From Arcuatula senhousia (Eukaryota; Mollusca; Bivalvia; Mytilida; Mytilidae), in NCBI GenBank assembly GCA_963971305.1, contig CAXARO010000135.1:34075-98074 (forward strand): a stretch of 64,000 nt of DNA, written 5' to 3'. The first letter of the stretch is position 1. Each line of letters starts with the position of its first letter. Positions 8,214 through 55,000 of this stretch are shown in pieces. The position numbers and the translations under genes were made by a program. Under the pieces are notes generated by a model that did not search any database, was not told the origin of the DNA, and was given only the letters and a program-made list of their open reading frames with translations.

Positions 8214-10030
8214 AAGAGGCTCACAGGAGCCTGAATCGCTCACCTGGTCTTGATGTTGACCCTATACTTTTGTAGAGCTAAATGAGCTGAACATTTAAGC
8301 AAGCAACAGCTTTTCTCTACCTGCAATAGTTTTCATTCTAAAGGCCAAAAACACCATTTTTCACCTATAATGGGCCATAACCGCTATAAGGAGTCACCTG
8401 ACAACTTCGACCCTATGGAGACTTTTGTAGAGCTAAATGAGCTGAACATTTAAGCAAGCAATAGCTAATCTTTATCTGCAATAGTTTTCATTCTGTAGGC
8501 CAAAAACATGAAAAATCGCTATTTTTCATGGGCCGTAACCCCTATAAGAGGTCATCTGACATCTTCGACCTTATGGAGAATTTTGTAGAGCTAAATGAGC
8601 TGAACATTTAAGCAAGCAACAGCTAATCTCTATGTGCAATAGTTTTCATTCTGTAGGACAAAGACATGAAAAAACGCTATTTTTCAGGGGCCGTAACCCC
8701 TATAAGGGGTCATCTGACAACTTCGACTCTATGGAGACTTTCGTAGAGCTAAATGAGCTGAACATTTAAGCAAGCAACAGCTAATCTCTATCTGCAATTG
8801 TTTTCATTCTGCAGGCCAAAAACATGAAAAATCTTTATTTTTCAGGGGCCATTACCTCTATAAGGGGTCATCTGACAACTTCGACCCTATGGAGAATTTT
8901 GTAAAGCTAAATGAGCTGAACATTTAAGCAAGCAACAGCTAATCTCTATCTGCAATAGTTTTCATTCTGTAGGACAAAAACATGAAAAATCGCTATTTTT
9001 CAGGGGCCGTAACCCCTATGAGGGGTCATCTGACAACTTCGACCCTATGGAGAATTTTGTAAAGCTAAATGAGCTGAACATTTAAGCAAGCAACAGCTAA
9101 TCTCTATCTGCAATAGTTTTCATTCTGCAGGCCAAAAACATGAAAAATCGCTTTTTTTCAGAGGCTGTAACCCCTATAAGGGGTCATCTGACAACTTCAA
9201 CCCTATGGAGAATTTTGAAGAGCTAAATGAGCTGAACATTTTAGCAAGCAACAGCTAATCTCTATCTGCAATAGTTTTCATTCAGTAGGACAAAAACATG
9301 AAAAATCGCTATTTTTCAAGGGCCGTAACCCCTATAAGGGGTCATCTGACAACTTCGACCCTATGGAGAATTTTGTAGAGCTAAATGAGCTGAACATTTA
9401 AGCAAGCAACAGCTAATCTCTATGTGCAATAGTTTTCATTCTGTAGGACAAAAACATGAAAAAACGCTATTTTTCAGGGGCCGTAACCCCTATAAGGGGT
9501 CATCTGACAACTTCAACCCTATGGAGACTTTCGTAGAGCTAAATGAGCTTAACATTTAAGCAAGCAATAGCTAATCTCTATCTGCAATAGTTTTCATTCT
9601 GTAGGCCAAAAACATGAAAAAATGCTATTTTTCACCTTTAAGGGGCCGTAACCCCTATAAGGGGTCATCTGACAACTTTGACCAAATGGAGACTTTCGTA
9701 GAGCTTTTGATGCTGAATCAGTAGCGAGGCCTCAGATTTCCTTTATCTCTTATACTTTTTGATTTATAAGCCAAAAACAGTAGTCTGACCCCCCCTAGTC
9801 TATTTTTAGCAACGGCGGCCATGTTTTTTAACGGATCAAAAATCAAAACACAAGTTTGGTGCAGGACACCCTAAGAATCAATCATACCAAGTTTCATTGA
9901 ATTCTGTTCAGTAGTTTCAGAGGAGAAGATTTTTGAAAAATTGTTAACAGACGACGACGACGACGACAGACGACGACAGACGACGACGACGGACGCCAAG
10001 TGATGGCAATAGCTCACCTGGACCTGAGCT
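8214..10030 (-). mobile_element. R2 element nested in R4, with about nine 158-bp units
   Basis: Bounded by AAGAGGCTCACAGGAGCCTG and TAGCTCACCTGGACCTGAGC, between AAAAC-like flanks that would be continuous in R4. Inside, AATGAGCTGAACATTTAAGC recurs about every 154-159 bp from 8281 to 9542. A CGA/ACG trinucleotide tract lies at 9953-9991. No open reading frame. Copies at 5150 and 54405-57595 run in the opposite orientation. Confidence 0.65.
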
Positions 10031-12198: not shown

Positions 12199-12810
12199 CT
12201 CAAAAATGGTTTCAGATATCAAAATTGTGCAAGAATCAAAAGTGATCAGCATATTAAGATTTACCTGTCCTGAAATTTCGGAAAAGATCTCAGACTGCTG
12301 ATGTGGGAGTTATTGTTCTTTTTCCTAATTTTTGCCAAATTTTCACTTATTAAGCCCAATATCTTGAAAACTAACCAAGATATATCAAAAATTTAAATTG
12401 CATACGGTTAAGCACAATAATATATACAAATATATGTATCTGTGTAGTTCAGGTGAGCGATTCAGGCTCTTGGGAGCCTCTTATTAGGTATTGATTTAGT
12501 TTGATCTGATTCAGGCATTTTATTAAGTTTGCTCATTTATTTTACTCAGCAAACTTTGTGCTCTGACTGAAAATTTTAAAATTGTATAGAATGCATAAAA
12601 AGAGTGAGCAGTTTATAACATGCCTAAATTTTTAATCATTCAAAAAAACCATAATTGAGAATAAAAGACCTTTGTACATTGATTTAACGTTTAAAAAATT
12701 TTAAAAAGGCACACAACACATTCATGACATTCATTTCATTGTATTTTCTTCGTTTTTGTTATTTTCCTGGTCATATATTTTGCACCTTGCATTATGAAAT
12801 TTATTTTCAG

Positions 12811-13018
12811 CTTTTTATCACATATTGTACAAATATGGAATCGTCAGTCCCTATTCGCAGACCAGAAGAATTAGTCGATATACTGACACAAAGGGTTAAC
12901 GGTAGGAACCCGAGGCTTGTTTTGTCTGTCGTAGGTGATTCTAGTAATTTCGTCCCGAAGCCTTGGTTAACTCCCGTGTTTCAACGTGGATTGATGGAAA
13001 CCGCAAACGGCGCAAAAG
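12811..13018 (+). CDS. TRPM exon a: start of SLOG/MHR1 domain
   Basis: Begins after a TTTTCAG acceptor and ends in phase 1 at G|GTGTTT. It encodes about 69 residues including RPEELVDIL, NPRLVLSVVGD and WLTPVFQRGLMETA, which match the TRPM pattern of a beta strand ending in SVTGG-like residues followed by the helix that ends in GL..TA. The frame is open upstream of the acceptor (back to an ATG at 12724), but the upstream residues do not look like TRPM. The ATG at 12835 could be the true start if this exon carries 5' UTR; alternatively an upstream coding exon was missed. Confidence 0.85.
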
Positions 13019-16000
13019 GTGTTTATAAATACTCTTTATACAGACTATGTCTCGCTTGATGAAAACATTTCTTTTAGAAGATGAACAAGGAGCCACGGAA
13101 TACCAAATGGCATTCAAATATTCAAAGTCTAGAAAGGCAAATATAAAAGCATTATACATACATGGCAAAGGTATCAATTGCTAAAACGAAATGCACAACA
13201 TAACAGAAAAAAAACCCAAATCGAACCAATACTGACTTTGAGTTCCCCGGGAGTGATACTGGTTGGATTTTAATTGTTATACAAGGATGCAATGGATAAG
13301 TGTGAATCAAATCTGTTAGTGGACACCAAAACAAACAATCTGTGACACGCCAACATTTGTATATAGTAAAAAACCTCGTCTTTCGTCCAGTCTGGACATG
13401 GTGTCCTTCGTAAATTTTCTTTACTGCTGACAATAATCGATAAGAAACCTAAACATGTACAAGCAAGATATACTGACTTATGGTTAATAGAAGCATACTT
13501 AGGTACCATAAGGCATTTGAATGTCAAATAATTCGAAAGCAACGCATCTCTCAAACAAATCACCAAAAGATCTTTCATCTAATGTAAAAGTTCAACGTTA
13601 TTACAATGTTTTGATATTTCAAAAAAACAAACATATCTACGTATTGTACCTGTTTTATTCCAGTATGCAAAATAAAATGTAAGTATTTAGCTGAATATTT
13701 GAAAGTACAAATGTATATTCATAATCTACTTTGATCTCACTGCTTTATATCTTTTTAAAGACTGTCTTATCCTACACAAAGGCTCTGATGAAAAAGTCAG
13801 TACTCTTGTACGTGAAGCTGTTTACAACTACAAAGTGATGAATCGCGCTGACCATACTGAGAATGAAAATCGTATTTCACTAGTGGGACTGAGATCTCAA
13901 TACGATTTACAATCGGTATGTCAAATTATTTAGACATAACAAATGGACATTTTAACTTTTAATAGACTATCACAGATTTGTTAAGATGGTGGTCGGGTGT
14001 AAAAGCAAAATGCATCATTTTTTTTCAGTTTTGTAGAATTCAACTTAAATGAACATTAAAAAATGAAAACATTGGGCGTCACGGACTTTTCTACAGATTT
14101 ATGACTTTGCAAAGTTTGTGTCCTAAAATAAGGGTCTATTTAAGGTTAAGGTAATTCGGCAGTATAAACAAAATCCATTGCTTGCCGATTTGCTTCTTCA
14201 TTCATATGGTCGGATTTCTCACACTCACTTCTAGACAAAAAAAGGATTGCATACTTGCTTTATCGTTTAACCTCATTTTCGTTATATTGATGATGTCCTT
14301 TCTCAAAACAATCCCGTATTCGGGACTTTTTACATCTAATATATCCATATGAACTTTAGATAACGGACACTACAGGTTATAGGAGGTGAGCTTCATATTT
14401 GGATTTCTATCCCGAAATTCACAAAGCTTTACGACAAACGTGATGACTTCAACTTTCAAATAGTCAACATTTCCTTTCTGTGTACCTACATTCCATCCGA
14501 TCCAGCCTATGAATCTACGTATCAGAACTGATTCGTTATTTCAGCGCTTCTGGGTGTGTTGTGACGTATTTTATAAAGCTTCACGTTTAAAAGACAATTT
14601 GTTAACACAAGGTTACGTTGCTCCCCGGTTTTTGTCGTCACCAAAAACATTTAACGGAAGACAGCATGTGCTTGCAGAGAAATAAGGGATTTCTTTCTCT
14701 AAGACGAGCGCATATATTGGTTTGAAATAAAATTTTAGTATTGTCTCCCTTTACCGGTATTGTCCCACACTTAATAAATCGTTGAAAACGTTACAGGTAT
14801 GCTTAAATCAATTTCAAATTAAGTATAGTAGGACCTAGATATTGACACACCTTATTGTATTGACACATTTTCCTTGACGATAGCGTAGGTTTTTTTTCAG
14901 TATAATTCTTTTCCATTCAAAATAGATTTTGAAAGAAGCAAAGAGGCACCAATGGGACAATCCAGCGTCAAAGTCTGAATAGGCAACGATAAAACCAGAA
15001 AACACGAACGAACAACACAAAGAATCCAAAAACACCCAAAACAACACAAATTCAATGGAATAGAAATCAACGACGCGAACTCAAGTCGTAACTAGAAGTG
15101 CTCCGGAAAAGTAATCAGTTCCTACTTGCTATAGCGCACCCGTTGTGCTACCGATTCCCAATTCAATTCGCAAACAAATAAAACCCTATGACAAACCAAC
15201 ATCTGCGTTCATCTGAGAGATATTAATCCCATATTTTTCTATGAGCTCATGATGTCTTCCGTAAGATCAGCAACCGATAAATTATATATTACAAATACCA
15301 AAACGCGGGTACAAACGGTTAATTTGGATATGCTATATATCGATATTTCAAGGAGTAACCTCTCATCAGTAGCATTTAAACCAAAACATTGGAAGATCAA
15401 ATTCCAAAACAGTTGAAAACGAAAAGTACTCAAAACCAAAACGTTCGAACAAGGAAGCCAAATCCAGCACCGAGGATATCGACCATGTGCATTACAAGGA
15501 AAGAAACCTGGTGTTTTCATCAATTTTGAATTTAACAATCGGAAATTTCAGCGACAATATATTAGAAATTTTATGGTAATTCGTGTCAGACAAGTCTGAC
15601 TACCAGGCTTGTGATTACCCTCGGGGACCTCTGGTCCACCAGCAGCGGTTATCGCCCAGTGGTTTCAAAATTACAAATACCAAAACGCGGGTACAAACGG
15701 TCAATTTGGATATGCTATATATCGATATTTCAAGGAGTAACCTCTCATCAGTAGCATTTAAACCAAAACATTGGAAGATCAAATACCAAAACAGTTGAAA
15801 ACGAAAAGTACTCAAAACCAAAACGTTCGAACAAGGAAGCCAAATCCAGCACCGAGGATATCGACCATGTGCATTACAAGGAAAGAAACCTGGTGTTTTC
15901 ATCAATTTTGAATTTAACAATCGGAAATTTCAGCGACAATATATTAGAAATTTTATGGTAATTCGTGTCAGACAAGTCTGACTACTAGGCTTGTGATTAC

Positions 16001-19000
16001 CCTCGGGGACCTCTGGTCCACCAGCAGCGGTTATCGCCCAGTGGTTTCAAAATTACAAATACCAAAACGCGGGTACAAACGGTTAATTTGGATATGCTAT
16101 ATATCGATATTTCAAGGAGTAACCTCTCATCAGTAGCATTTAAACCAAAACATTGGAAGATCAAATTCCAAAACAGTTAAAAACGAAAAGTACTCAAAAC
16201 CAAAACGTTCGAACAAGGAAGCCAAATCCAGCACCGAGGATATCGACCATGTGCATTACAAGGAAAGAAACCTGGTGTTTTCATCAATTTTGAATTTAAC
16301 AATCGGAAATTTCAGCGACAATATATTAGAAATTTTATGGTAATTCGTGTCAGACAAGTCTGATTTTCAATACATTGTACAGGTGTACTCCATGAGAGTC
16401 TATTCTGAGATGTATTTATTTTCTATGATCGACTAGACTATGAGCAAGCATAAAAGTCAACTCAATGGTCAACAAGCCAAACGCAAATTTATCATGTTAT
16501 TGTTTTTTTTTATCATGAAATATACAGAAAAAAGCTAAAATAGGAAAGAAAAAGACAGACTCTAAACCAGACCCTAAGCAGCCGGCCACAAACCAGTTGC
16601 AACCAAACCAGTCAGGCTATAAGACGGGCGTTGAAGAGACGTATTACTGTGAGGCGGCTGACGGAAAACCGTACAGAACATTTCAAGCAAACTTATTGCA
16701 AAAGCTATCTGAAATATACGTGCCATTTGTTGAGCTGGAAGAAAAAGAAAGTAAGAGACGTACGGATTATCCTATTTACTCATACAAGCTACATGCATAT
16801 TTTGAACTAGTTCAGTTTCGGGTAGTTTCTCAAGTTTTTATTCTGGTGAAACATGATTGATTTATTTGACCGTATACGCTTTTGTTAAATTTAACCCTGA
16901 GCTTTCTTCTACTTCATTAAAATTAAATACCTATGTTGACTCGGTCAGCCTTCATACATGTATATATGCTTGTCATTTACCAAGAATCCTCAATTGTCAA
17001 ATCTATTGTAATTATGATTGATACAGTGCGTGTATGGTAAAAGCTTCCCACTCTCCCCGTTTACCATTGTACCATAAACCATCCTCATACACCATACGCA
17101 ACTCAATCCTCATACACCATTTGCCATCTCCATACCCATTTACTATTAACAGATGGGAACACATAATAACCTGTATGGTAAGATAGCCTGAGTAGCAGAC
17201 AAAAAGTTAACTGCAAGTCCACCTATTACTGTTCATGCGACTGCTTTGAGCAGCCACGCGGCTAGTTCCAAATAAACTTACAAAGCAGTCATTCTTCCAT
17301 TTCTGCTTTTAAAAGCAGTCGCGTTCTTATGACAGGTTTGGTCAAGTTAACTTTGTGAAGGGTCAGCTTTATAGACTAAAATTCATGTAACAGCTTTCAC
17401 AAGACAAAGTTCATGTTCCATCACCTAAGCTGTCGTCTAAATTCATTTTAATGATATGAAAAGTTTTTAATAAAATTATATAAATTTTAATTGTCGTATT
17501 ATTGAACTGAGTCTGCTTAGAGCAGGCCTCTCAAAATGACTGGTCTGGTTCAAATGAGTGTGCGCAAGTTAACCTTGATGTCTGCTATAGAAAGCATGAG
17601 CAGACATGGCACAACGTTTACTTGATGTTAACGTGCGTTCAGGTTCTGTAACATCCCCATCTAACAGAATACAAATAAAACAAATATTAGTATTTATTTC
17701 TTGAATATTTAATAACAAGAGTTGCATTAGATTTATTCTGAAAGTATTGATAATACGCAAAAACAAAACAACTATCGTGTGCCGTAGTTAAAAACAACAT
17801 ACATGTACGTCATTTATTTTGATCCTAAACTTTCCGATAATTTGTGCACTGTCCATTTTTATAAGCCAGTGTCTACTTTATATAACAATTTTCGAATCAA
17901 AATATTTTAATAACATTAAACTTAATAACATAATTTTAAATCAGATACATGTACAAGCCTGTTCAGTAAAAATATAATAATTTGAAAATAGTCTTAATTG
18001 TCTCAAATTGAAAGGCACTTTACAATTTATTTTCAACTAAATAAATAAAGTAACCACCTTTTTACACGAAGTAAATGAAATGAAGTACTGCTATTTCTTA
18101 AATATTACAAGTTTTAATTAAAGTTTATGATATCTTAAGCAATATAAACTAACATTTTTGTGGTTGGATTCTCGTCAGCGGTAAAAATTCCATGAACTGA
18201 TTTTCCGTCTCTCTATTGACACCATTTGCAAAGATGGTTTCAAGAAACGATACTAGTCAGTCGGAAGAAACGAAAAAAGGTTGTCCCGTGTATAGGGAGA
18301 GCAATACCTTGCGCAATGCACTGTGCAGTTTAAGACCCCTTTGTAAATCTCAATAAGAGTAGGCTCAATGGGGGCCGTTTACAAAGACCACACAGACGAA
18401 CTGCCAGCTAGAGGGAGATTTATAGAAACATTTAGCTTGTTTCCCCATTCCCCAAAAAATAAATATGTTAAAATTCCAATAAATTAACAATTAAAACTAG
18501 AAAAACTGTGAGCCGCATCTCACAAATAAATACCCCCCTTCCCCCCCCAAAAGAAATAAATCAGATAAAATTTAGAATAGGAGATGCACATCTACATTAT
18601 GTCACAAAGATTGTGTGTAGGTTTCATGAAAATCCATCGAGGGGTTTAGGAGGAGTTGTGGATAAGAGATGGGTACCCCCATGTAGGCGAATGGCTAAGT
18701 CCATGTTTTGCTATGGGAAACTCCAAAAATCATTCTGATCAAATTTTAAAATAGTAGGTGCACATCTATATTATGTCCTAAAGATTGTGTGTAAGTTTCA
18801 TGAAAATCCACCAAGGGGTTTAGGAGGAGTTGCGGATAAGAGATGGGTACCCTGAAGTGTAACGGAAGGACGGACGGACACCCCTATCAATATATACCCC
18901 CACTTCACATCTACATTATGTCACAACAATTGTGTGTAAGTTTCATGAAAATCCATCAAGGGGTTTAGGAGGAGTTGTGGATAAGAGATGGGTACCCCCA

Positions 19001-22000
19001 TGTAGGCGAATGGCTAAGTCCATGTTTTGCTATGGGAAACTCCAAAAATCATTCTGATCAAATTTTAAAATAGTAGGTTCACATCTACATTATGTCACAA
19101 AGATTGTGTGTAAGTTTCATGAAAATCCACCAAGGGGTTTAGGAGGAGTTGCGGATAAGAGATGGGTACCCTGAAGTGTAACGGAAGGACGGATGGAAGG
19201 ACGGATGGACACCCCTATCACAAAAGTGGGGGTATAAAAAATAGACTAATCAAATTCAAAATATTATTTACCATCCCATTCCCGATTTACTTTTCAATTG
19301 ACCCATCTAATTCGAGATACCATTTACCATCCCCATTCCCCATTTACATTCATATGTATTATTATTCCCATCCCAATACACGATATTATTCCCAATATAC
19401 CATTTATCATTCACCCTCCTAATCCCCATTCCCCACCCCACCATATACCATAAATTGGGAAGCTTCTACTATACAGGAACTGTACGCGATGTTTTTGTTC
19501 ATAAGCTTGGTGGTTATTTCTGTGAGTTGTTAGGATCGGTTTTGATGAATAAAACTACCAAACTGGGAGTTCAAATTCAAATGCCCAAATGGAAAGACCA
19601 AACAATGCAGACATACCGGAGAAATTGAGAATAGCAATGACATAATACAATTATAAAGTTTTTGCAAAGGAAATGATGTATTAAACCTAATTAAACTAGG
19701 TTATAGACCTAAACGTCTTTCTTCTCTTTTAATATATAAAAAAAATATATATAAATTTGAAACGTACTGAAAGGATAAAAAGCTACCGAACATGGAGGGT
19801 CAATTTGAAATGTACACGAGAAAAGACAAAACATAGTTGAAATACCAGAGAAATTGAAGATCGCAATGGTCCTGGTACATTGTACAGCCATTTCAAAAGA
19901 TATTGTGGGTTAAACCAGGTTTTATGGTACGCCAAGCCTCCAATATTCATTGTGATCCTAAGGTACGGTCGTATCACACAACACTACTTCTTGTGAAGAC
20001 ATAATAGGGATATTGAGTTGAAGCGCAACCAGATTTATTGACAATAGAATCGCAATTACCCGTTTATTTATTAAACCAAAAATTGACAGTTCTTATTAAC
20101 CTTAAAAAAAGAAATAATATAATAATTTCTGAATTCAATATTTACTTTATTGTTATCTCTGTGCTCTTTGAAAAGGTCACAAATCCCTAAAGACTCTAAA
20201 ACGTCTTTAAAACGTTTGTTGTAGAATTTTTGATGAGGATTCCTGTGTTGGTCATTGTTGTTGAAGGTGACCTCGAAACATTAGATCACGTGACTGAATT
20301 GCTGGAGCGTAAAATACCGATACTAATTTTGAAGGGATCTGGAAAAGCAGCAGACCTCATTGCAGATTGTTTACAAGAGGGACAACCAAGGTTGGTCAGT
20401 CAACTTACAATGAATAATTAAAACAATATTCTAATGAATACTTTTGACAATACTTTCTTAATTGTGTGATACAAACATATTTATCAGGAATTCTTATTTT
20501 ACTTTTGATGCCCTTCAATACCTATGGAAAATCGTAACAACTGGAAAGAAAATCTCGTTATGTGAAGGGATATACATGCAATGACTAGAATATGGAATAC
20601 ATGTACATGTATTGAGTCTTTTATCTATTTTAGTGATGAAGCAATTACCGAATTGATTCCTCTTTTGTTTGGTATTTGCTTTCGTAATATGGACCTGGAG
20701 AGACTGAAAGGTTATATGCAGAAAATACAGAAGCACAGACATTACGTATGTTCTATAAATAGCTTTACTAATTACTACGTTTAGGCAGTCATAAGGTAAG
20801 CACGACCCTATACATTATATAGTATAATCTAAAAGTAATAATGCATAACAAATAACTTGAAGATAGGAGTTGAAGATGTATCTCGAACACACACATTTTT
20901 ATGTATCTTTACACGATTTGGTATGGTCTAGAGACGCTATAGGTATATATTTGGATATGCATTTTGAACATCTTTTGAATTGTGGATTTCCTTCGTTTGG
21001 ATTCTAATGCTGCTGATGAGGAATACATTTCCAAAATGGCCATACTGCTCATAATAAAGTAATTGCAGTTGGAGTTAACATATGTGTTATGGTCTCATGT
21101 TCATTTACTTCATATCCTTTCGTAAATTATATATTACAGGAGTTTGTCTTTTATGCCGTTTGGAGTTAGTAGAACAATTCCCTGTGTTTAAGATGTTTGC
21201 TCTTTATTTTTTTAGAAATGGTGTACTTTGTTTTTAACCACTATATAAATTTATGAAAATTCTAAAAACTTAAGGTTAAACTGACTCCATCATTGTTTGC
21301 CCTTAGGTATAAATATATCAGGATTTCGTTTAGCTCTATGCATTTTGAACATCTTTTGAATTGTGGATTTCCTTTGTTTTTGTTCTATTGCTGCTGATGA
21401 GGAATAATTTTACTGCTCATATAAATAATTACAGTTGAAGTTTACATATGTGTTGTGGTCTCATGTTCATTTACTCCATATCCGTTCATAAATTATTTAT
21501 TACAGGAGTCGTCAGACTTGCCTGACACGATTTTCCATTACATTTCTAATATTTTTGTCGCTGAAATTTCCGATTCTGAAATTCAAAATTGTTTTAAAAA
21601 AACAGGTTTATTTTCTTGTAATGCACATGGTCGATATCCTCGGTGCTAGATTTGGCTTCCTTGTTCGAACGTTTTGGTTTTGAGCACTTTTCGTTTTCAA
21701 CAGTTTTTGATATAATACTCATTGTAGTTTCGATATATATCATATCCGAATTGACCGTTTATACCCGCATTTTGGTATTTGTAATTTTGTCTTTTATGCC
21801 ATGTGGAGTTAGTAGAACAATACCCCGTGTTTAAGACTTATGTTATTTTTCTTTTAGATATGGTGTACTTGTACATGAGATTACGGTATGAGATTACTTC
21901 TCATGTGTACACTTTGTTTTTAACTACATGTACTATATCAATTTATGAAAATTCTTAATCCTAAGGTGAAATTCCTTCCATCGTAGTTTTGCCCTTAGTT

Positions 22001-28000: not shown

Positions 28001-31000
28001 CATGTATGCACAGGGAATTCAAGATGGCAGATAAAACTTAACTGACAAGTGCAAATGCCGAAAAACCTCCTGAAAAATCATAGACGTGAACCAAGAGTTC
28101 AAGTACTCTCCTTTTTCAATAAAGAAAGACTTAAAATTTTCAAGGTCATTTTTAGTCCATGGAATTACATGAATTACGTTTTAACTCACTTGACCCACAG
28201 GGTAATGTGAGATATTACCATCACTTGGCGTCCGACATAATCGTCGCCGTCGGCCGTCGTTTATTCCAAAATCTTCTATAAAACTACAAAAGAGATTGCT
28301 TTGAAACTTTGCCCGTATCCTCCATTGGATGTCCATTACCAAGATTGCAAAAATTGTGACTGCTTACTGCCGCCGTTGTTGAAATAGAAAAGTAAGGTCA
28401 GACCCCAGCTTTTGGCCTATAAATCAGAATATGAAAGAGAAGATTTGATGCAATCTTCCTTCTTCAGCAAGAAAAGCTCTTCAAAAGTCTTCATATAGTC
28501 AAAGTTGTCAGATGATCCCTTGCAAGGGTTACGAGAAAAGTAGAAATAGCTTTTTTTATATTTTTGTGCATAGAATGAAAACTATCGCAAATAGAGAAAA
28601 GCTGTTGCTTGATTAAACCTTCAGCTAATTGAGATCTACATAAGATTAAATTGGGTCTAAAATGTTAAATCAACTCTATATTGATATGGTAATTTAATAG
28701 TGAAAATAGAATTTGTTCGTGCTTTTGGCCCATGGAATAAAAACCAAAACAGATAGAAAAAAATCTGTAGCTTGCTTTGGACACCTTTTATTGTAAAACA
28801 ATTGACTTTTCACTAAACTTTTCCAATTCATATATAAATGGCGTTATATTTGTATGTTAACTAATTTTTAAAAATTTTCTTTGAATATGAAAAAATATAC
28901 ATATTTTTGATATTGTAGAATTTCAAGATTTTGCTTAAGCAAGCTATTGTCGCCAATCGAGTGGACTATGTGAAAGTTCTACTGCAGGAAAGAGGTGTAG
29001 AGTTTGACAGAAAACATTTTCCGTACTTGTACTACAAAGTAATTATATAGATTATTATCTTATTATCTGGTCTGCATAGAAGCACCCAGGGAAATCAAAG
29101 TTTGATTTTCGTTTGGTATTTTTTGTTTCACCACGCCAAACACATTAACACATTTTCAAAAAAAATGTACATATAGATGCATTTTCCCTCAATAATGTTC
29201 AGCTTGTGGACTCGTGTTGTTAAACATATACTCTCATTATTTTCTTAAGAGTAATTGTTTAGCTAATATTTCTCAAACTGTATTAGAACGAATGCTATGT
29301 TCAAATGTATTTTTTTCTTAGTTATTGCATTATATACTATTAAAGAAAATCGGATAAGGAACATTACATAAAGTTAAGGTTCACTTTAGATACTTAACTC
29401 GACATAAGGTATGCTTTCTTTTGTGTTTCTAATGTCACTTATTGCTGTAATAGAATTTGAATTGTCGTTCTTTGCATGGTTTTTACGTTAGACTTACATT
29501 ACGAGGAGCAGAACGTTAGAAATACTCTCTCTTGTTTGTAAGCTTATATAAGTTTTATATAAGTAATAAATAAAGGTAATAACAAAACTACCGAACTTGA
29601 ATGATCAATCTCATAGTCCAGAGAAAATGACAAAAACGAATCAGTCATACCGGAGAACTGGTGGATCGCAATGGTCCTGACTTGGTACAGGCATTTCAAA
29701 CGAAATGGTGGGTTAAACCAGGTTTTATGGCGCCAAACCTCCCTCTTCCATTGCGATCTCAAGTTCACAACATACAAAGTTACATAGAATAGTGCGACAC
29801 TGGAAAATTTTCTTTGAATTAGGTTTTATAAGTCGAACAAAATAAGACATGTAGGATATGAAAATTATCATAAAAAAATACAGAAGCTTTTGTCTGGAAC
29901 TTGGTTGTAATTTTTATTTGAGAGAAACACGAAACCAGAAGAAATTAAGATCGCAATGGTCCTGACTTGGTACAGGCACTTCCAAAGAAGTGGTGGGTTA
30001 AACCAGGTTTTATGGCGCCAAACCTCCCTCTTCCATTGCGATCTTAGGATCCGGTAATGACCATAGAACACAACATAGTTGTGAGACACAATAGGGATAT
30101 TGAGGTGATCATCTCAGTACAGCACACCAGTCAAACACTAATTAAAACAATTAACTATCATATCTTTTAACTCAATTTTGAACTTTTCTACTAGTGGCTG
30201 ATAACGAAGAAAGAATTTTTTTAGGGATCGTATGAGACGTATTTTCTTATAGCCCTGCTTCAAAAGTCGGTCACGAAGAAACCGGTGTCTGATCAAAAAA
30301 TCTGTGAATTGTGTGCAAGCTCTGGCATATCGAATAAGTTGAGAAATATAAACACCGTATGCAGGAGAAGTAGGTATATTGCTCTGTAGATTAGGAAAAT
30401 TAATAATTCGAAAATTAAAATCGTCTCGTTTATCGTAAATTTTTGTACTGAGATGACCACCTGGGTCAAATTCGAGGTGCAAATCCAAGAAAGACGTGAA
30501 GCAATTAGATTCGGTGGTCTCTTTAATCTCCAATTCCGGAGCATATATTGAAGGAATCCAACTACCAAATGAAGTATTATTGATAGAAAGGACATCGTCA
30601 ATATATCTGAATGTAAGATTAAATGACCTTGCCTCTTTCATCTTCTTGTTCTTTGCGAGTCCCTGAAGAAATTCAGTCTCGTAAGAGTATAAAAACAAAT
30701 CGGCGAGGAGAGGAGCACAGTTTGTGCCCATTGGAATGCCGATTTGTTGTTGAAAAATCTCTCCTCCGAAGGTGACAAATATGTTGTCAATGAGGAAATC
30801 AAGCATACTGCAAACTTGTTCCAGTGTGTAACAAATTTTATCTTTGAAAGATGTTTTGGAAAAGAATGTAGAATTATAACCCAAAACAACACAATTCCTT
30901 GAGTTTGAAAAGGCTTTTTCGAGAAGTTTTTTCAGGCGACATTTTAGTTTTTCGTGTGGCAAGGTAGTGTATAAAGTTGAAAAATCGAACGTTTTCAAAG

Positions 31001-34000
31001 AGTGAACCTCAGAAAATGATCTAGATTTAAAATGATCTAACAAATCTTTTGAGTTTTTCAAAATCCACATATGGTTAATTCCACTACTAATTTCAATTAT
31101 TTCAAATGAAATAAATTGATAAAATCCATGCTATACTGAAGATCATTAAAGTTTATACAATAAACGTATTTTTACACTATTTTATATAAAACCGTAATAA
31201 GCATTTGCAAATCAATTAGATTCGTATACCATATATATGAGAAATGTTTATTATTTATTAGTTCATCTTCTCTACCGTTTAGTAAAGTTGAAATTTATTG
31301 ATAAATTGCCTGATAAGCTCGATGAAATATCAGTTGCTTCACATGCTTGTACATATTTATGATTCATAGGCCTTTTGACCCTTGACCGCGGTTCCACATT
31401 TTCAACATGGAGCGCCAGCGCGTTTCATTAAAAATGTGCTTTAGTCAACAGTTTTACATACCAACGAAACATCAAAATACAAACATTCTATTCTTAAAAT
31501 AATGTTCTGTATTTTCAATCTTTTGGCAGAGTGCATTCGATGAATCTTGTATAGACGACGGCGCGTTAGGAGAAGCAAAAGTTGTTACATGTATCTAGAA
31601 CTTTGTTGTGTTTTTCTATTTCTAACATCCGTACCGGTAAGCGCTGCTGGTAGAGTTTTAATCCCCCGTGGTTAGTCCGCTCCGGAATCAATACTTTTGC
31701 AATGAGGAACACGTAAACTTTAAAATTATCCGCTTGAATTTTTTAAAAATGCCAAAACTCTAAGGGTCTTCCTTCCCCAGACACATTTTGGTCTTAGTCA
31801 TAATTTGGTTCCCTGTTCAGCATTTTATGTTTAATCGTTCTATGCTCTTCATATTCATTAATGTTTGACATTTTAAATCTTTTGCAAGAGCGCCTCTGAT
31901 GAGTCTTGAATAGACGAAATGCGCGTCAGACGTAGCAAAATTATTTGTCTTGAGCTTTGTTGTAATTTATATTTCGAAAATAAACTTTTGCGCTTTTGAA
32001 AGGTAAGTGCACCACATCCGTTGCTTTACGAACAGTCGTAATGTTTTGGAGACCACTTCCACATTAAGGTTCATCTGTACCTTTCTCTAAAACATGCACA
32101 CAAAATTGAAATATAAAATGTAGCTGGACCTAGATATTAAAAATTCTTACCTTATTTCTATGAATTATTCCTGTAAAATATCTTTATTTTAGAGATCTCT
32201 TTTTTCTCCGCTTTTAAAAACACCCGATTTAATATCACTTTCACCCTTTCTTGTTACCTCAAATTTCATGCAACTTTAATAAGGGATTTAACTAAAAAGT
32301 GTTCACCTCGTTTCATGTAAGAGGCACAATAGGGATAATATGTCCTTTTTAAATCTAAAATCTGAACAGGAAAAAAAAGAGATCATTATTTTTAAGGAAC
32401 TTAAAATGAAAAATTGATAGAAAATTGAATCAGAAATTACCTTATCTAGGTCCAGCTATGCTTTATTCTATTATTTTATTTGTAGTTTTTTGTTCTGCAT
32501 ATACTAGAAAATAGGTAGAAAATTTCGCCATTTTAAACGAAAGATATTGATGAACCTTAATGCGACTGAATCGTTTTTTTTTATTTGTTTATAAAAGCAA
32601 GTCTTTGTAAGTAGCAAATTGCAGTAGTCTTCTCTCAGTTGAGCGCCTATCATTTCCAGTGGCGGATCGAGAAAGTCTAAAAAGAGGGGGTCCACTGATT
32701 GGCCTAAGAGGGGGCCGCTTTGGTCACGCTTCAATGATTTTCTATATATTCAACCAAATTTTTCCGCCAAAAAGGGGGGGACCCCAGGCCCCCCTGGATC
32801 CGTCTATGATTTATCGTTTGAGCCTTTGGTTTGTATCTTTCAAGTATTTTTTTTCTATTACTCGTTATAGATGCAAGTATTTGTCACGGCTATTCTTTTT
32901 TTATCTTAACAAATAGACTGACCAAACCAGTTTTGTACATCGTATAACAACTTTCGGAGTTTCCAGTACAAAAGCTGACCCCTACTCTTTATATTAATAT
33001 TTGAATAACAATAGAAAGATGAACCATTTAAACTGATCATTTAATTGTCGAATCGAGTCGCCGCAGCCCTGGTGCGATAAACCATTTGCATCGGTCTTCA
33101 AGCTATTAATTTAAATAACAATTGTACATGTATATCCTATATAGAACTTGTTTCGCCAGATTGTGTGTTACTGATTGAAAATGACATAAAAAGGGGGGGG
33201 GTTAACTCATGCAAGCGATAGATTCTATGAAAATTAATTGATTTTTTCTAACGAAAATGGTGTTTTGCAAAATTGTAGATTAGCAAATCATGCATGGACG
33301 TAAATTCGAATTTTTTACTAGATGATTTCTTAGTACTTACAACCCCAATTTCTAAGTTCTAAATTTCACCGTCTGCATCGATAAAAACAATTTATAAATC
33401 AAAATTAGAAATACATTATAATTTTATAAAGATGGCAAAACTTGCCATCATCAAGAAAAAAAACTAAGTTAGGGAAACGGGGACACACCGCCAGTGGGGG
33501 GAGAGTTTTGACTTGCAATGCATGGGAAAAGGAGTGATGGTATGGACTGGCAATTTAGCCTCCTATGGATATCCTATATTTTACGAGACCTGCAACTAGG
33601 TTATTTAACGCGCGAGGAACGTGGCATTTTTCCTAATATGGCGCCCTTCTATGGTTTGCGGTTAGGTTATTCAGATTATAGCAAAGCGACCCAAGCCGAT
33701 GTCAGGTTTCTTGAGCGCTCTTTAGTGGACTGTTACCGACAAGCTTAGCGCTGCTGTGGGTCAATTCGCTACATGGAACCCACAGGGGTAAATAAAGAGA
33801 AAATGAATGATAAACACTAAAACAATTAACAGAGAAAGAAGACTTTTGATCCTAATAAGTTTCTATAAATCGGAACATAAATGTATATACAAGTATGTCG
33901 ATTTTATTTCGAATTCTTTCCATGATACTGCTTAAGACATTGTGTTAACTTGTTTATAAGAAGAGTTGTATGTATTTTTTTCTGATGTTTAAATATCACC

Positions 34001-37000
34001 AGGTGCTGTTAGCAACCAGGCTTATATCGGACTAGGATTGTAAGAGCAAAACAGACAGTTTTACGCATTGGACATAACAATTGTTAACGGTGTTTTTAAA
34101 GCTTTAAAAAGTCTTATCGCGCAACCTAGAACGGCCTGTACTAGGGTATACACTTGGTCGCGCTACAACAGTAAGAAAACTACTCTGTTGAAAAGTATCA
34201 TAAGTATATCAACGGTAAACTTAGTCATGTTAGTCGCAAGCTTAAAGATGAGCTACACATTTCAACCATTATTGTGAATCTTCTTAAAACTGAAAATATC
34301 TGCTTTAAATATCATACCAGTTTGCAGATACCTTTGATTTTCATTGACTTGCAATAAATTTATTGTTTTAAAATAATAATCATGATTATTTTCTACATTA
34401 TTTGCATGTATAAACTATTGTTAAGATACATGTTAACAGTTGTATTGTATTTTCCAAAGCCCGGAACAGGTGGAGGAAGTATTAAAACAATAAAATGTTA
34501 CTTCAGCCATGTATAAGTCAGAATTTTCGTTAAACTCAATATGAGTGGCGCAATTGAATTCATAAAATTAAATATTGACGCAAATAATCTTACCCTTTCA
34601 AAAAATATGTTGGCGCAATTATAAATTGTGGCACAACAAATAGTCAAATTTGCGTAAACGGATATTTCCCACCCCACACTAAGGTTGATTTCCAGATATA
34701 AAGTCGAAATTCTTTACAAACATCAAAACAAGAATTTGACAAAAGTACCGGTATGTATAACAACAGGAAGTGAATAATTATGGAAAGGATTATATCACCG
34801 AAGTATCATGTTAAAGGTCAATATAAAATATAAATAGATTCTCCTCCCTTCCTGCCCTGATTTTTTCAGCCTAAAGTCCTCAAAATATATCTATTTCTGA
34901 TTTTATGGGCACTAAATGACAGACATTTTATAAAATTAGTAATAGAAATTGTTTTAGAAAAGAATCATTCTCATATATCAAACTGGACAACATAAACCTC
35001 AAAAAATGGCAAAATTAATGACATTCATTTTTTTTTCTTTGCAATTTACAAGCTGCTTATACATTAAATGACAGAAAATAATATCTACACCAAAGTCCCA
35101 ACCTTTCAGGAAGGAGTCTCACGACTTTTTTATAAGTAATAGGAGGCTATATCCAAATTCTGCACCCCAACTTATTAGATCACCAGGTGTTTCGAACATC
35201 TATTTAGACCAATTAGCTTATACTAATTGACCTTGACCATGTTCATCATCAGGGACCAAGCCATAATATGGTGATTTCATGTTAATAAAGGTAATACCAA
35301 AACTACCGAACTTGAATGATCAATCTCATAGTCCATAGAAAATGACAAAAACGAATCAGTCTCACCGGATAACTGGTGGATCGCAATGGTCCTGACTTGG
35401 TACAGGCATTTCAAACGAAATGGTGGGATAAACCAGGTTTTATGGCGCCAAACCTCCCTCTTCCATTGCGATCTTAGGATCCGGTAATGACCGTAGAACG
35501 GAAGATAGTATTTATATGTGTCGTATATAATCTCATCTTTAACAGATTACGTTGCACTGACATTTTATTAAGGGTCCGACACCTTAGCGATCTATTATTT
35601 TTATTTGTTTTAAGAATGATTAATTTTATTTTCAGCATCCATCTTTTTCTCTCATTGATGAAATATGGTGTAAATTGATGTAATTTGGAAAGAAGATATA
35701 ATATTTGTCTGATTGCATGGGTTATCTTGTCAAGAAAAACCTTTGGGTGCATTTCTTTCGTTAATTTGTTTATTGTTCGAACTCTTGATCTCTTCCTTTC
35801 TTTGATATATAATTCCTTTCTGTCAAAAATAACAGTGATGTTGTTTTGTTTACTAATCTATAATGATCATTATTGTGTTGCTTTTCAATTATCTAATTGC
35901 ATTTCCATTTCTGACTTGCTTATTTTTGTCAAGTACTGTTCAATACGCAAATTATTGATTAAATATCTAAGTTTCTGTTGCATTGTTTGCGAAGAGGGGT
36001 TTTTAACCTGATTTCCCCAGAACGTATGATTATGTCACTATCACCGTTCGTGAATTGGTATTTACATCTTAATTTCCTTGCCGGCTCATTAGAGTCTGAT
36101 ATAAATTGTGATTTCAATTGTCTGGTATCCCTTGCTAAGCGATTGGATATTGATTTATTTGTAAATATTTTTTTCCAATTTCTCAGCTATATGTAATCAT
36201 TTTTATAGCGCTTTTAATTTTCATTTGTTATTTGATAATAGACCTTCATCTGAATGGCCTTTTCATTGCGCTTTTGTCTATCAAGACGTGTATTAGCCAT
36301 GCTTTTTTTAAAACAGACTGGCAGATAACCTTTTCGGGGAAAACCAAACACGCCCTAAATTATTTTAGACCAATCAGCTTACAGGCGGGAATACCAGGTC
36401 AATGATCTACTATTATGTCAAAATATGTTTATTTATATCAATTTTCTAATCATTCTTTCTATCATTATATCGATCTTTTGTAGTTTATTGAGTTTAATAA
36501 TGCAACTCAAGACTAGTACAGCTATGGCATTATAAGCAAATTCAATAAATATCCTTTATGTTTTTTTTTTTTTTCCTCCTGATATATTAAATTCCGTTCT
36601 ATCAAAAAAGACAAGTGTGTTGTTTGATCAGCTTTTTTAATGATTATTATCTGTGTTGCTTTTCATTTAGCTAATTGCATTTCCTTTCTGACTTGCTTAT
36701 TTTTTAAGTACTGTTCAATACGCAAATTATCGATTTGATATCTAAGTTTCTGTTGCATTGTTTGTGAACGGGGGTAATAACCTGATTTTCCCAGAACGTA
36801 TGATTATGTCACTATCACCGTTCGTGAATTGGTATTTACATCTTAATTTCCTTGCCGGCTCATTAGAGTCTGATATAAATTGTGATTTCAATTGTCTGGT
36901 ATCCCTTGCTAAGCGATTGGATATTGATTTATTTGTAAATATTTTTTTTCCAATTTCTCAGCTATATGTAATCATTTTTATAGCGCTTTTAATTTTCATT

Positions 37001-43000: not shown

Positions 43001-46000
43001 CCGAATATTTAATAAACATGTACTTGTAAATTTCCATCAATTGGATTAAATGTACAACAAACTTTTAACTGACATTTATATATTCTAATTTTCCCCTACA
43101 ATTCAACGAAAAGAATACCGAAAGACAACAAGAGTAATACTGATCAAACTTAATTATAATTCGGTGGTTTGAACCATATTCCTTTTTGAAAGCACTTTAC
43201 TATTTTACCGTTTTACAACACATATTTTTAAAGTTGCATTTTCCTGAAAAATATTGGATATCATAATATCATAGATGTTGAAAAGAGCTTACCTTCTAAT
43301 GTTTTTTTCTTTCGATATAATCATACAAGATTTGTTACATACTTCCAAATATATTATCAACTTACAAAAGCGAAATTTAAACAATTTGTAGGCAAAATGA
43401 GCAGTCTGCGTCTAAGACAAATCCCACATTTGTTTTCCTAAAAGTAGTATTTTTCTGTTGCATTGTTTCGCAGATGAAGCTTGGCTAAAAGGTTCAAAAT
43501 TATCTAATTTTACAGGCAGTTTTAACCAATGTTAGCTTTATCATATTAATTTTGTTTCGTTCATTTTACTACGTCTTATGAAACTTTGGTATGACAAATT
43601 CTATACAGTCAAGATTTTGAACTTGAAAAACACAACCTAAACTTATTTATGTATTTGGTAGAGCACCTCTTATGAGTCTTGAAAGACGAAACACGCGTCA
43701 GGCGTAGCAAAGTTTATTGTCTGGAACTTTGTTGTCATTTGTATTAATGAAGGTTTAATTTATCCTCTACATATTACCTACCTATAATTCAGACAAATAT
43801 GTATTGACATATGAAATATTTATCATAAGGACTTACGGTACTTTCAAGGGGAGATGAAAATTATGACAGGCCGTAACCACTTTAATGAGAAAATCTTAAT
43901 TCAAGTTACTTAATCCTAGTTTACATGTAACTGAGCTTAATCTAGGATAAAGTAACATAAATCAAGATTAACCCAGCTAAATGTTAGTTACAGAAAAACC
44001 TCATTTTTTTGCTCAAATAAATGATAGATATTCAGTTAACCCTAGATAATGTTACTTTAACTAAGATTAAATAGTACTTTTAAAGGTTTGTCACTAAAAA
44101 AAAACACAGTTCATTCGTGTGTTTCGAGGGTTTTGATTTGCCAAAAGATAACCCATTTTTTCTTGCAGGAATTTTGGTTGGCTAGAACATAGCCCATTTT
44201 TACTGGAAACTTAATCTAAGATAAAGCTAGTTAAACGTGCCTTACAGAAAAACCTAGATCGTCTTAATTAAAACTTAATTTTTCTCATATGTCAAATTAA
44301 GCTTAGAAAAACTAAGATTAACTGAAAAATAAGCGAAAATCTTAGTTTGAGCAGTTTTTATCTAGCAAAAACTTGGTTTTTCTCAGCTAAATGATAGTTA
44401 AGTCAGTTAATCCTAGACAAAGCTCGGTTAATCTAGGATAACGATACTCTATCTAGGTTTTCCCATAATTGTGGCTGTGGTATGCCATAGATAATTTCGT
44501 TTTGGAATTTTGTTGGGGTATTTGTAGTTTTACTTTCAGTAAGTATTAAAAATTACATTTTAGTGACACAAATGAGTTTTTAGTACGTGTTTTGGATTTT
44601 AAACAAGTTTAAAATGTTGGGATACTTTGGGCTCTTAATGGGTCTTTTTAAGAGAGTGAGGGTTCGATCGCCTCGCTTTGTAACGAACCAATTGTAAAAT
44701 TTATAAATTGCATCAATCACTTGTCCCAAGGTGTCATTTAAATTTTTTGTAAATATTTTATGCACTATATGATAAGTCACCGATTTATAGAGGCATTATA
44801 ATTGTAAAATCTATTTGTTTATATCTGTTTCAGAAAATTATGGCAAGGAAAAAATTGACAAGGACAACAGTTATCAGGACCTACTAATATGGGCAATTTT
44901 TGCCAACAGACAAGATCTTGCATCATTATTTTGGCTGAAATGCGAAAACCAATTGGGTAAAACATTTATTTATTGATTAAACGGAAGTAAGGGTTAGTAG
45001 ACGTAAACATTCAATTCTGTAGGCTTATATCCTATTTAAAACGGGGTTTATGCCTAAAACACTGTTAATTTCAATGATGAAACGATTGACAATATGTCAT
45101 ATTAATACAACAGAGAATGGTAAACTTTCGTTCGAGTCATCGATAGCTTTATGGTAAATTACGTGAAAAGTTGAGAGAAAGATTGCGGATTTTAATCTAG
45201 GCATAAAAAAATTGTTAAAAAACTGTTTAACTGTTTTTTCTTAAAAAAACATTAATTTTGTACAACGTTTAAGTCAAAACATTTCATTACTGACTGTCAT
45301 ATATTATACGAAAGCCATCCAATATCACGTATAATGACGTCCAAATATTTATCGGAAAAATGAAAAATGAAAATACTGTATTAACATAAGCGTGGCGTCA
45401 CGACTGTGTTTGAACAAACTAAATCTTTAGCGTTTGAATTGATTTCAAATTGGCAATTTAAGGACAGCATTGATATTGTTCATAACAGTCCTGCCAGAAG
45501 TACAGACTGTAAGATTTTTAAAATAATACGTTATTGAAACTTTAGACCACCTTATCAAATGAATTTAGGAATATTAGAAATATTATATCTTATTTGAATT
45601 CTAATTTTCTTCTTATATACCCCAGACATAGGTTGGTCCGAGTGATAATTTGAGTTGTTATACGGCTCATATAGGTTTTACTGTACTACATGTATGTTCT
45701 TTATACTGTGATTGTCATGAATCGAATAAAATATGACTATATGTGTTGATTGTTTTAAAAACTATTTTCTCCAAAGTAAATGATATTTCACATCGTTTTA
45801 CATTTTACGTGTGTTTAAAGAGGGTTGTTAATTAAAAGTAAGAGTAAACAATATTATCTGGCGATAGATGTCCATTTTTAGATTAAGAAATAATCATTGC
45901 CAATGGAAAATTACACACTTTATATGTATATGATAAACGCAATGACTTTTCTTTCCCAATTGTCAATTTTACTTTCCTTGAAGGCGATGTACCTTTTGCT

Positions 46001-52000: not shown

Positions 52001-55000
52001 AATGAACAACATTGTCAACCAATAGTAGTGACTTTCTTAGTGAATCAAGTTTGTGACTAGACAATTTTAGGTCGTAATAAGCAACAGCTTTGTCGTGGTA
52101 AAATTTCTCACGTGCCCAGGTATTTAAGTTTGTCATTGGTTAAACTTTTGATTGTAACATAAATAGAATATGGAAGGTATTATTGCAACGACCCTATATT
52201 ATATAGGCCAGTGTTTCTGTTAACCCTAAAATGAGGGTAATTTATTCTCCAAAATTAATTTTGACCCATAAATTCTGCAAAATTGCAAAAAAGTTCCTGT
52301 ATTTACCTTGTCAGAATCTTTGAATATTATTTAGATAAATAAAATAAATAAATAAATCTTTATTTTCTAATCATAGGGCTCATAAGGGCATATCAATTAC
52401 AAATCATATATGTTTGATTACGTGGATCATGAACATAAACATATAAGAGATACAAGAAACATGAGAGCCAGCTGTTTTAGCACATATGAAAAGTTTCCCT
52501 GAAATACTACTTAAATTGTACATTTTCTTGGTTTTTTACCCTTCATGATTGGACATGCAATTGGCATTTTTATATTCTGAACATTTTTTATCAACTATAA
52601 ATACAAACACAAACCTTAGAGAATGACAAACTTCATTGACATGTCTCTCTAAATCATCCTTTAGGTTTCCAACATTTGTCCAACATTATGAGTAGAAATA
52701 CTTGCTGGATAATTCCGTCCATTGCACTAACAGCTTCTTAAGTATAAAAAGTAAATAAATAGAGTTTAATACGTGAAGCTTATAAACAAGGACTGATACA
52801 TGTACATGTAATAGATCCTGAACATGCCGAATAAGAGATTAATTGCTACATGTATACATTTTGTAACTATACAAAATATGTCTTTATAAGATTGAAGTCC
52901 ACATTCATGACATTTTGTACATATATGAAATTGTTGTATTTTGAAAACAAACATATATACACTGTTTGTACATGCAATGAGAAAACAATAATTTTACTAA
53001 TTATACATATGTAGATTGATACATGTGTGTAAGGCCACGCCAAATTGATTCATAGTTTGTCTGACATTTGCATGAAAAAATTAGGTGCGAGGTGGTGAAT
53101 TTTTTTTTCATTTGTTTCTTTTTCTAAAATAAGTGTTTTGGGAAAAAAAATCATCAGGACCTGTTTTCAGCCATACATTGCCTTAGATTCATGAACATGA
53201 CTGATGCAGGTGCTACTTAAAAGAAAAGTTAAGATTCAAAACATGTAAAGTTGGAGTCTGTCTTAATATCCCTATTCAATCTGACTTGTCTGACAATCCA
53301 ATTGACAAAACTATTAAACAGATGACATCTAAGCTGTTATTAAACATCAGCTCAATTTTTTTGCCAAATAAAATGGTTTCGGCTTATTTTCTACATTATT
53401 TTTATCCCACAAATCGAAAGTAAAACTGAAAGTAGAATTTTGTTTTCTGAATTTGAATAAATACTGACATAACTGTTACAACTAATGATTGTACATTGTT
53501 AAACATTTATGAAATGAAGTTTTTTCGTCGTTTGCAATTACATGTACTTACATTTGTTTAATCTGAAAGATTTCTCCAATCCGACATGCTTCCACCACTT
53601 TGACTGCCAATTTTCTACTTCCTGTAAGTTGAATTACCTCCCTTTGTGCCAAGGGAGGTAATTGGCGGGAAAATATTTGAAAATGCATGAACTTTTGACA
53701 TTTTGGAATTCAATTTGTAAAAAGATTGCCTCCAACTACCAATTTTTATTGTTGATTCTAAATCTACAATATCATTTTTGCTATACAATTAAGACATTTC
53801 GGATTCACTGTTGCTTTTTTGTACAAATAGTTATTTTTTAGACGTGCTAATTTAAGGGTTTTGATTGAAATATAACAAACTAAGGACATTTTCTTTGAAA
53901 TATCCATCAATTCTATTTGAATTCTATTTGATATTGCTTATTACAAAACTTTAGTTAAATCGTTTTAGTGATTTTGACAAATTTTAGAATTTTCAAAATT
54001 CTCATTTTTGCATGAAAAATACCCGGTTGCCATGGTAACAACAAATATATGACCTTAGTAATTTGTTTTTGAATACATATTTATATTGGCTTTAATGTAC
54101 CTAATTTATAAGGAAATAATTTTTTTCCACTCTTTCTATATAAAATACTTAATGGTTACTGACAGGGCCTCTTAATTATATCACAATATTTTCAATGAAA
54201 TATGATTGCTTACAACTTTAAACAACTTCTTTCTTTACGGAAACTTAAATGAATAGCTTTATTGAAACAACGGATTTTAATTTAAATTGATTGGTCATAA
54301 ACTTAAATTTAAAAAAGATAGATATAATAGATAAAACAATTATTTCCATAAAATTTTACAAAGAAGTAAAAATACTGCTTGATCTTGTTGACTTTTGTTT
54401 GTTTTTGGCTCACCTTACTCGAAGGGTCATGTAAGCTATTGTCATCGTTAAGCGTCCGTCGTCCGTCCGTCCGTCCGTCCGTTGACTTTTCTTCAAACTC
54501 TGAAACCACTGATGGGATTGCTTTGAAACTGTGTACACTTGATCTTTAGGATGTCCGCTACCAAGTTTGTGAAATTTGTGAACGTCGACCAACCAACATG
54601 GCGACTGTTACTAAAATAGAACAGGGGGTAAGACCAAAGTTTGTAGCTCACCTGAAAGGTCCATGTGAGCTATTGCCATCACTTGGCGTCCGTCGTCGTC
54701 CGTCGTCGTTAACTTTTCTTTGAAAATCTTCTCCTCCGAAAGGACTGAAGAGATTGCTTTGAAACTTTGCACACTTCATCTATGGGATGTCCTCTACCAA
54801 GATTGCACAAATGGTGACCGCCGTCTAAACAACATGGCCGCCGTTACTAAAAATAGACCAGGGGGTCAGACTACTTTTTTTGGCTTGTAAATCAAGAAGT
54901 ATAAGAGATAGATGAAATCTGATGCCACGTTGCTGCTTCAGCATCAAAAGCTCTACAAAAGTCTTCATTGATTCGAAGTTGTCAGATGACCCCTTATAGG

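Follow-up and report, generated by a model that had tools for sequence, protein, structure and literature searches.

A 64,000-nucleotide stretch of the genome of the bivalve Arcuatula senhousia (assembly GCA_963971305.1, contig CAXARO010000135.1, positions 34,075 to 98,074; here, the window, numbered from its own first letter) carries a tandem array of a hammerhead-bearing element that we call retrozyme A. Insertions of this element share one fixed internal 3′ end and have scattered 5′ ends, and directly beyond the point where the copying starts lies a module whose relatives occupy the same offset in a second retrozyme family (B) and in a Penelope-like element (PLE) of the same genome. We consider it probable that retrozyme A spreads as an RNA circle that PLE machinery copies from an internal priming site, which would make the array a parasite of the PLE, in the manner of a short interspersed element (SINE). 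Retrozyme A itself is a metazoan-type non-long-terminal-repeat (non-LTR) retrozyme, a known kind; what is new about it is the anatomy of its insertions.

The array spans positions 15288 to 16363 (Tandem Repeats Finder on the window: period 382, 2.8 copies, 99% match). Its RNA sense is the minus strand, in which unit 1 occupies 15288 to 15669 and has unit position 382, the fixed 3′ junction of the insertion, at 15288; unit 2 occupies 15670 to 16051 (Tandem Repeats Finder and copy comparison); and unit 3, at 16052 to 16363, is 5′-truncated at unit position 71. The units are more than 99% identical (3 differences between units 1 and 2, 1 between 1 and 3, and 3 between 2 and 3). Unit positions are numbered in RNA sense, from position 1 (TTTGAAACC...) to position 382 (...TATTTGTAAT), with the predicted ribozyme cut at 334|335. 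The 382-bp unit has 39% GC, and the element shows the features of metazoan retrozymes: a tandem repeat of 150 to 450 bp, GC below 50%, dispersed copies, and their retroposition signature of a fixed 3′ end and scattered 5′ ends. A retrozyme-like array with 382-bp spacing had been proposed from the letters alone (the original prediction), and the period does hold over three near-identical copies. A descriptor of the hammerhead (CUGANGA, stem II, GAAA, stem III, H17, and a stem I of at least 5 bp) matched the window only three times, each time inside the array and on the minus strand, compared to 0 matches in 100 first-order Markov windows modelled on the window. The three complete type I hammerheads of the original prediction were thus recovered in 3 of 3 copies, at 15330 to 15375, 15712 to 15757, and 16094 to 16139 (minus strand; predicted cuts between 15336 and 15335, 15718 and 15717, and 16100 and 16099, respectively). 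C3 lies at 16133, 15751, and 15369, and H17, an A, at 16100, 15718, and 15336; stems I, II, and III are 6, 4, and 3 bp long in each copy, with the predicted cut after A17. Judged by these motifs, RNA copies of retrozyme A probably cleave themselves.

In a survey of the host genome of the window (1803 contigs, 1.036 Gb), we counted 5,481 exact occurrences of the 37-nt ribozyme core (2813 + 2668; reversed control pattern, 0), and we read 74 separate insertions; on the genomic side, therefore, the repeat is not single-locus, the outcome that the original prediction had named as telling against itself. A DNA search with the unit yielded 555 candidates, of which 40 were scored, giving 142 matches. 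The first sample of 38 arrays consists of the 38 regions fetched from this search, with L034 dropped (its flanks are those of L032) and the window array added; L051 holds two arrays, counted once, and a 16-nt match at the edge of L052 was left out. All 38 arrays read as plain tandems. The second sample consists of 40 array ends from the first 100 core places listed, all on contig C1.

The fixed 3′ end, 48 nt beyond the predicted ribozyme cut, was found in 72 of the 74 insertions. In the first sample, 37 of 38 arrays terminated at unit positions 380 to 382 (the exception, L061, at 351). Of the 40 further ends, 34 were at the fixed site (five of them with a tail substitution, read by eye from the letters), one (L122) was elsewhere, and 5 were still within the array, giving 34 of 35 informative ends. 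An old single insertion in the window (21508 to 21789, plus strand; 87 to 90% identical, hammerhead deleted in part) also terminates at this site (...TATTTGTAAT). The 5′ ends of the 38 arrays, by comparison, were spread across the unit. Such a combination of one fixed with one scattered end is characteristic of target-primed reverse transcription. With the fixed end 48 nt beyond the cut, the template must have run unbroken through the cut site, as either a ligated circle or an uncut multimer. An apparent pile-up of 5′ ends at the hammerhead cut, from search rows starting at 333, was rejected: the fetched sequences show scattered 5′ ends, and we took the rows as trimmed by the tool.

In the 56 insertions that end exactly at 382, the adjoining flank favours T, T, T, G, A, and A (40, 34, 34, 27, 35, and 24 of 56, respectively), and TTTGAA is the continuation of the retrozyme RNA beyond the insertion start. 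The flank matched this word at a mean of 3.46 of 6 positions when aligned directly, 2.38 when shifted by one base, and 1.55 to 2.09 from offset 2 on; the word topped all 382 6-mers of the unit, with TTTGAT (3.39) and TTTAAA (3.27) as near rivals. Microhomology of at least 4 nt was present in 7 of the 56 insertions (0.35 expected). The simplest reading is that the nicked target anneals to the RNA. A site preference of the endonuclease could explain part or all of this signal.

Arrays also differ from one another in a way that speaks to their origin. Among 110 near-full units from the 38 arrays, of which 99 had an intact 37-nt ribozyme core, the mean distance was 1.54 within and 2.67 between arrays (0 of 500 label permutations as low). 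In 13 of 26 multi-unit arrays, one or two variants were fixed in all units (e.g., 5 of 5, 10 of 10, or 4 of 4), some of them recurring in another array, and in arrays of at least 3 units, 53 of 57 segregating differences were singletons. Given this uniformity and these fixed variants, each array seems to be derived from a single unit, and such an origin seems to fit repeated copying round one RNA circle. The same data bear on an alternative in which PLE-type machinery mobilizes the same retrozyme, with an uncut multimeric read-through transcript as template and the hammerhead dispensable for insertion. A 3′ end fixed at 382 proves only template continuity across the cut, and a PLE tested in vitro used unprocessed RNA, hammerhead cleavage being unneeded (PMC11167929). 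However, the template of an old array would transmit unit-specific mutations, whereas we observed mostly singletons (53 of 57) and arrays with variants common to all units (13 of 26); moreover, 99 of 110 units still keep the exact core. We regard an uncut template as unlikely and favour the copying of a circle.

Family B provides a second instance of the same anatomy. It is a tandem repeat of period 358, hosting a PLE copy in L071, and its hammerhead is a match to RF00163 (36.5 bits against the Rfam cut-off of 34). From the layout of A, B was expected to stop just 5′ of its own module, and 12 of 12 captured B ends lay at the corresponding place. Among 20 fetched loci, 10 of 10 captured 3′ ends were at B positions 77 to 85, the other 10 loci being still within arrays. 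The window holds two further B ends, one in a decayed insertion of about 1.2 units (31539 to 31978, plus strand; module at 31636 to 31688, 3′ end at B position 83) and one in a short piece (43669 to 43745, plus strand; 3′ end at B position 78). Measured from the hammerhead cut, the captured B ends were 45 to 49 nt away in ten cases and 51 and 53 nt in two; in A, the distance is 48 nt. The B locus in L071 lies at 842 to 1218, and Rfam-positive hammerheads were present in L071 and L090.

The module common to the two retrozymes and the PLE lies at 15597 to 15661 of the window (minus strand), with a second copy at 15979 to 16043 (minus strand). The original prediction had divided the repeat into a 313-bp core and a 69-bp spacer. 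This division did not survive: the real unit has a length of 382 nt, and what was taken for a spacer of 69 nt is the structured module, with the insertion start at its 5′ edge. The module stands directly 3′ of the start in A, B, and PLE alike and has a near-invariant GGTGGA...CCCCGAGG (ACCCGAGG in place of CCCCGAGG in PLE copies L074 and L115), with an offset from start to GGTGGA of 30 (A), 27 to 30 (B), and 27 (PLE). Local alignments were tested against 2000 single-base shuffles: the B and PLE modules aligned with a score of 38 (0 of 2000 shuffles as good), and those of A and PLE with a score of 36 (1 of 2000). A profile built from A, B, and Bathymodiolus copies, with PLE kept out of the training set, was searched over 82 kb. 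It recognized the module in L074 and in all but one (6 of 7) of the fetched PLE 5′ regions, the exception being L116, which is truncated before the module. Five of the PLE matches had E values of 3.7 to 3.9 × 10−4; the two better matches were B copies (L071 in the training set), and the next unrelated match had an E value of 2.6. Helix P2 pairs at 6, 7, 7, and 6 of 7 positions in representatives of A, B, PLE, and Bathymodiolus (26 of 28), compared to a mean of 4.25 of 7 when strands are combined across families. Helix P1 pairs at 6 of 6 positions within A, PLE, and Bathymodiolus and at 1 to 6 across families.

The PLE (P0001 family) is represented in the window by a 5′-truncated copy at 29568 to 31087 (minus strand), with a reverse transcriptase (RT) open reading frame (ORF) at 30138 to 31130 and the 3′ end typical of the family. 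This ORF had 55,338 first-look candidates in the genome; the best 121, which were scored, were 96 to 98% identical apart from the window's own, with several frames of 1045 to 1063 amino acids. In L074, a GIY-YIG domain was found toward the N-terminal side (26.9 bits; cut-off, 22.6), and scans of stretches of the frames place the GIY-YIG domain and a weak RT match, below its cut-off, in one PLE ORF. The 20 PLE loci read showed a common 3′ end, within a few bases, and 5′ truncation, and 5 of 7 fetched 5′ regions contained a tandem junction, with one copy directly after another. Protein relatives of the RT (7,226 of 7,998 scored) included, among the matches listed, Pinctada imbricata (59%) and Parabacteroides distasonis (59%, partial); a search for relatives in PDB found none. 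In the PLE copies of L070, L072, and L079, the terminal ~190 bp appear again a few hundred bases past a first, earlier end, and ~100 bp are present twice. Further 3′ fragments of the family (76 to 96% identical) lie in the window at 35284 to 35509, 19770 to 20021, and 59854 to 59939.

From these elements we infer that Penelope-type machinery may mobilize both the A and B retrozymes, by a route that can be outlined as follows. The minus strand would be transcribed, the hammerheads would cut after A17, and the 382-nt monomer would be ligated to a circle. The folded module (unit positions ~10 to 70), with its relative at the start of the PLE, would be bound by the RT/GIY-YIG endonuclease of the PLE. 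The endonuclease would nick the target, whose strand would pair with the RNA near UUUGAA, immediately 5′ of the module, and reverse transcription would begin there, internally, at unit position 382. One or more turns round the circle with a variable stop would then leave scattered 5′ ends.

The enzyme may of course be another one: a reverse transcriptase from a long interspersed element (LINE) or a different PLE family could mobilize the retrozyme, with the module serving, for example, transcription or RNA stability. Our PLE evidence comes from one family, in which the stretches read have no recognizable hammerhead. In addition, a 74-nt relative of the module is repeated about 24 times in tandem at L031:4548-6368, in a contig labelled as a metagenome-assembled genome of a Bathymodiolus septemdierum symbiont but probably host DNA. 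The module is there a tandem repeat of its own, with no hammerhead found by a scan of the locus, which indicates that the module exists outside retrozymes too. A literature search for the letters of the module returned a single match, on Plasmodium antigens. Nevertheless, a promoter role would not predict that A, B, and PLE all carry the module at the same offset from the start of insertion, and we hold a different enzyme to be improbable. An ordinary satellite spread by recombination or extrachromosomal circular DNA, with the hammerhead as a relic, would agree with the exact tandem period and the near-identical units, but it is very improbable and in the main refuted by the fixed 3′ end, since reinsertion of DNA circles should leave both ends in any phase, rather than with one end fixed (72 of 74) and the other scattered (38 arrays).

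Several results weigh against PLE-driven copying of a self-cleaved circle. The first group concerns the ribozyme. Rfam gave no match to RF00163 (Hammerhead_1) in the array, either at the gathering threshold or at E ≤ 10, and the sole extra Rfam match was to a sub-threshold miRNA family outside the array; the covariance-model check put forward with the original prediction was thus negative in Rfam for family A, its sister family B being the one with an RF00163 match. In the A hammerhead, a G-U pair closes stem II, and all pairs of stem III are A-U. When 69 nt were folded in isolation, the lowest-energy structure was not the full hammerhead (−10.1 versus −6.1 kcal/mol for a hand-entered full-hammerhead structure), and its stability was not unusual (z of −0.67 to −0.93). 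The distal helix in that fold is UUGG/CCAA, and the copy 2 change, which the original prediction had described as a pair-preserving wobble, is unpaired there. The 382-nt circle was no stabler than shuffled sequences (29 of 60 as stable). Given the Rfam miss, the weak stem pairs, the non-hammerhead optimum, and the unexceptional circle, hammerhead activity of retrozyme A is a plausible prediction. Four of the 38 array 5′ ends lie near the cut, at 331 to 334, which is not a significant cluster over all windows (P = 0.68).

A second group of such points concerns the insertions and the module. Target-site duplications (TSDs) did not clearly exceed the control values (4.76 versus 4.53 for the longest shared word; words of at least 7 nt in 3 of 38 versus 4.4% of control). 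Since the sampled arrays are the best-scoring copies, they are young copies, and both samples are biased in this direction (best-scoring or exact-core places). Direct alignment of the A and B modules was weak (score of 27; 38 of 2000 single-base shuffles as good), and two of the seven PLE module matches, at an E value of 0.01, fell below the inclusion line. P2 pairs less well in other copies (5 of 7 in B copy L025; 1 to 5 of 7 in diverged Bathymodiolus copies), and the pairing of the module rests on a register set by regular expression. RNAalifold on a MAFFT alignment of the module found no common structure and no pairs, and shorter module alignments were out of register by one base. For the PLE, the Pfam match to RVT_1 on the C-terminal side was weak (E value of 0.005 to 0.03, below the cut-off). 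Hammerheads are described for other PLEs; here, a scan for CUGANGA hammerheads found none in the PLE stretches covered, which were part of the copies only. Finally, in the published in vitro assay of a PLE (PMC11167929), copying began at a site without homology to the cut DNA, unlike the TTTGAA signal here.

In the window, the array lies between pieces of a TRPM channel gene. An ORF 5′ of the array (12688 to 13056, plus strand) contains a TRPM exon matching SLOG profile positions 11 to 60 (25.3 bits, just below the cut-off of 25.7), and one 3′ of it (20200 to 20418, plus strand) matches positions 175 to 222 (39.6 bits, above the cut-off); a weak Ion_trans match lies at 62755 to 63081 (18.7 bits, below the cut-off). 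Because the SLOG pieces on the plus strand bracket the minus-strand ribozymes and are accompanied by the weak ion-channel match, these profile matches support the original placement of the array in a TRPM intron, antisense to the predicted gene. No inverted repeats of at least 12 nt were reported in the array region, no proteins resembling the ORF across the retrozyme unit were found, and a search of viral contigs with three patterns for similar sequence gave 0 matches. Elsewhere, a 155- to 158-bp repeat forms long arrays at 8268 to 9705 and 54949 to 57560, in opposite orientation by the letters of the consensus unit, and its letters also follow the PLE 3′ end in L084. At 18587 to 19197, a 319-bp repeat is present about twice, its copies being 96% similar; the descriptor found no hammerhead there.

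PLEs have been named a strong candidate for the mobilization of animal retrozymes (Cervera & de la Pena 2020, PMC7229834), and a 2020 review describes animal retrozyme repeats as having no conserved motif that points to an enzyme (PMC7761336). The closest known elements are the retrozymes of Mytilus galloprovincialis, from which retrozyme A differs in that its hammerhead escapes Rfam; an insertion start, a template-like flank, and a PLE-common module are undescribed in the main-text portion of that report (PMC7229834). The plant LTR retrozymes are likewise non-autonomous, with hammerheads and circular RNA, but they have type III hammerheads, LTRs, a primer-binding site, a polypurine tract, and a length of ~700 bp (per PMC7229834). 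The enzyme of the Anolis PLE Poseidon initiates reverse transcription at an internal site that lies downstream of a hammerhead, and its activity depends on RNA beyond the start (PMC11167929). Like the retrozymes here, Poseidon has tandem copies, a hammerhead upstream of the internal RT start, and AT-rich targets (PMC11167929), and the retrozyme layout of hammerhead, start, and module matches its arrangement. In contrast, the retrozyme lacks such an ORF, its start is 48 nt past the cut rather than ~85 to 92 nt (by subtraction from the coordinates in PMC11167929), and its flanks resemble the RNA after the start. The PLE of this genome carries its GIY-YIG domain toward the N terminus (L074), and the stretches of it that were scanned showed no hammerhead. 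For rotifer PLEs, one study reports a tail and at least one insertion that lacks a TSD and is joined by microhomology (PMC3846280). In a literature search with subscription papers mostly outside its range, we found no report of fixed retrozyme insertion starts or of a PLE-common module.

In LINE/SINE pairs, a short element borrows the enzyme of an autonomous one through an RNA signature in their common 3′ tail. The signature described here differs from these in lying beyond the start site, so that it is copied only if the enzyme rounds the template. We lean, with somewhat less assurance than for PLE-driven copying as such, toward a view of the module as the RNA address of bivalve Penelope-type machinery. 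Retrozymes would then be circular, SINE-like carriers of this address; the enzyme would prime beside it, anneal the nicked target, and write one to about eleven turns, and hammerhead, start, and address would together form a portable cassette. The module is a conserved motif at a matching position in A, B, and PLE of one genome. A common folded signature beside a fixed start suggests which enzyme copies such elements and, with the retrozyme insertion start defined at nucleotide resolution, the question of the mobilizing enzyme can be put to the test with a single purified protein and a handful of RNAs.

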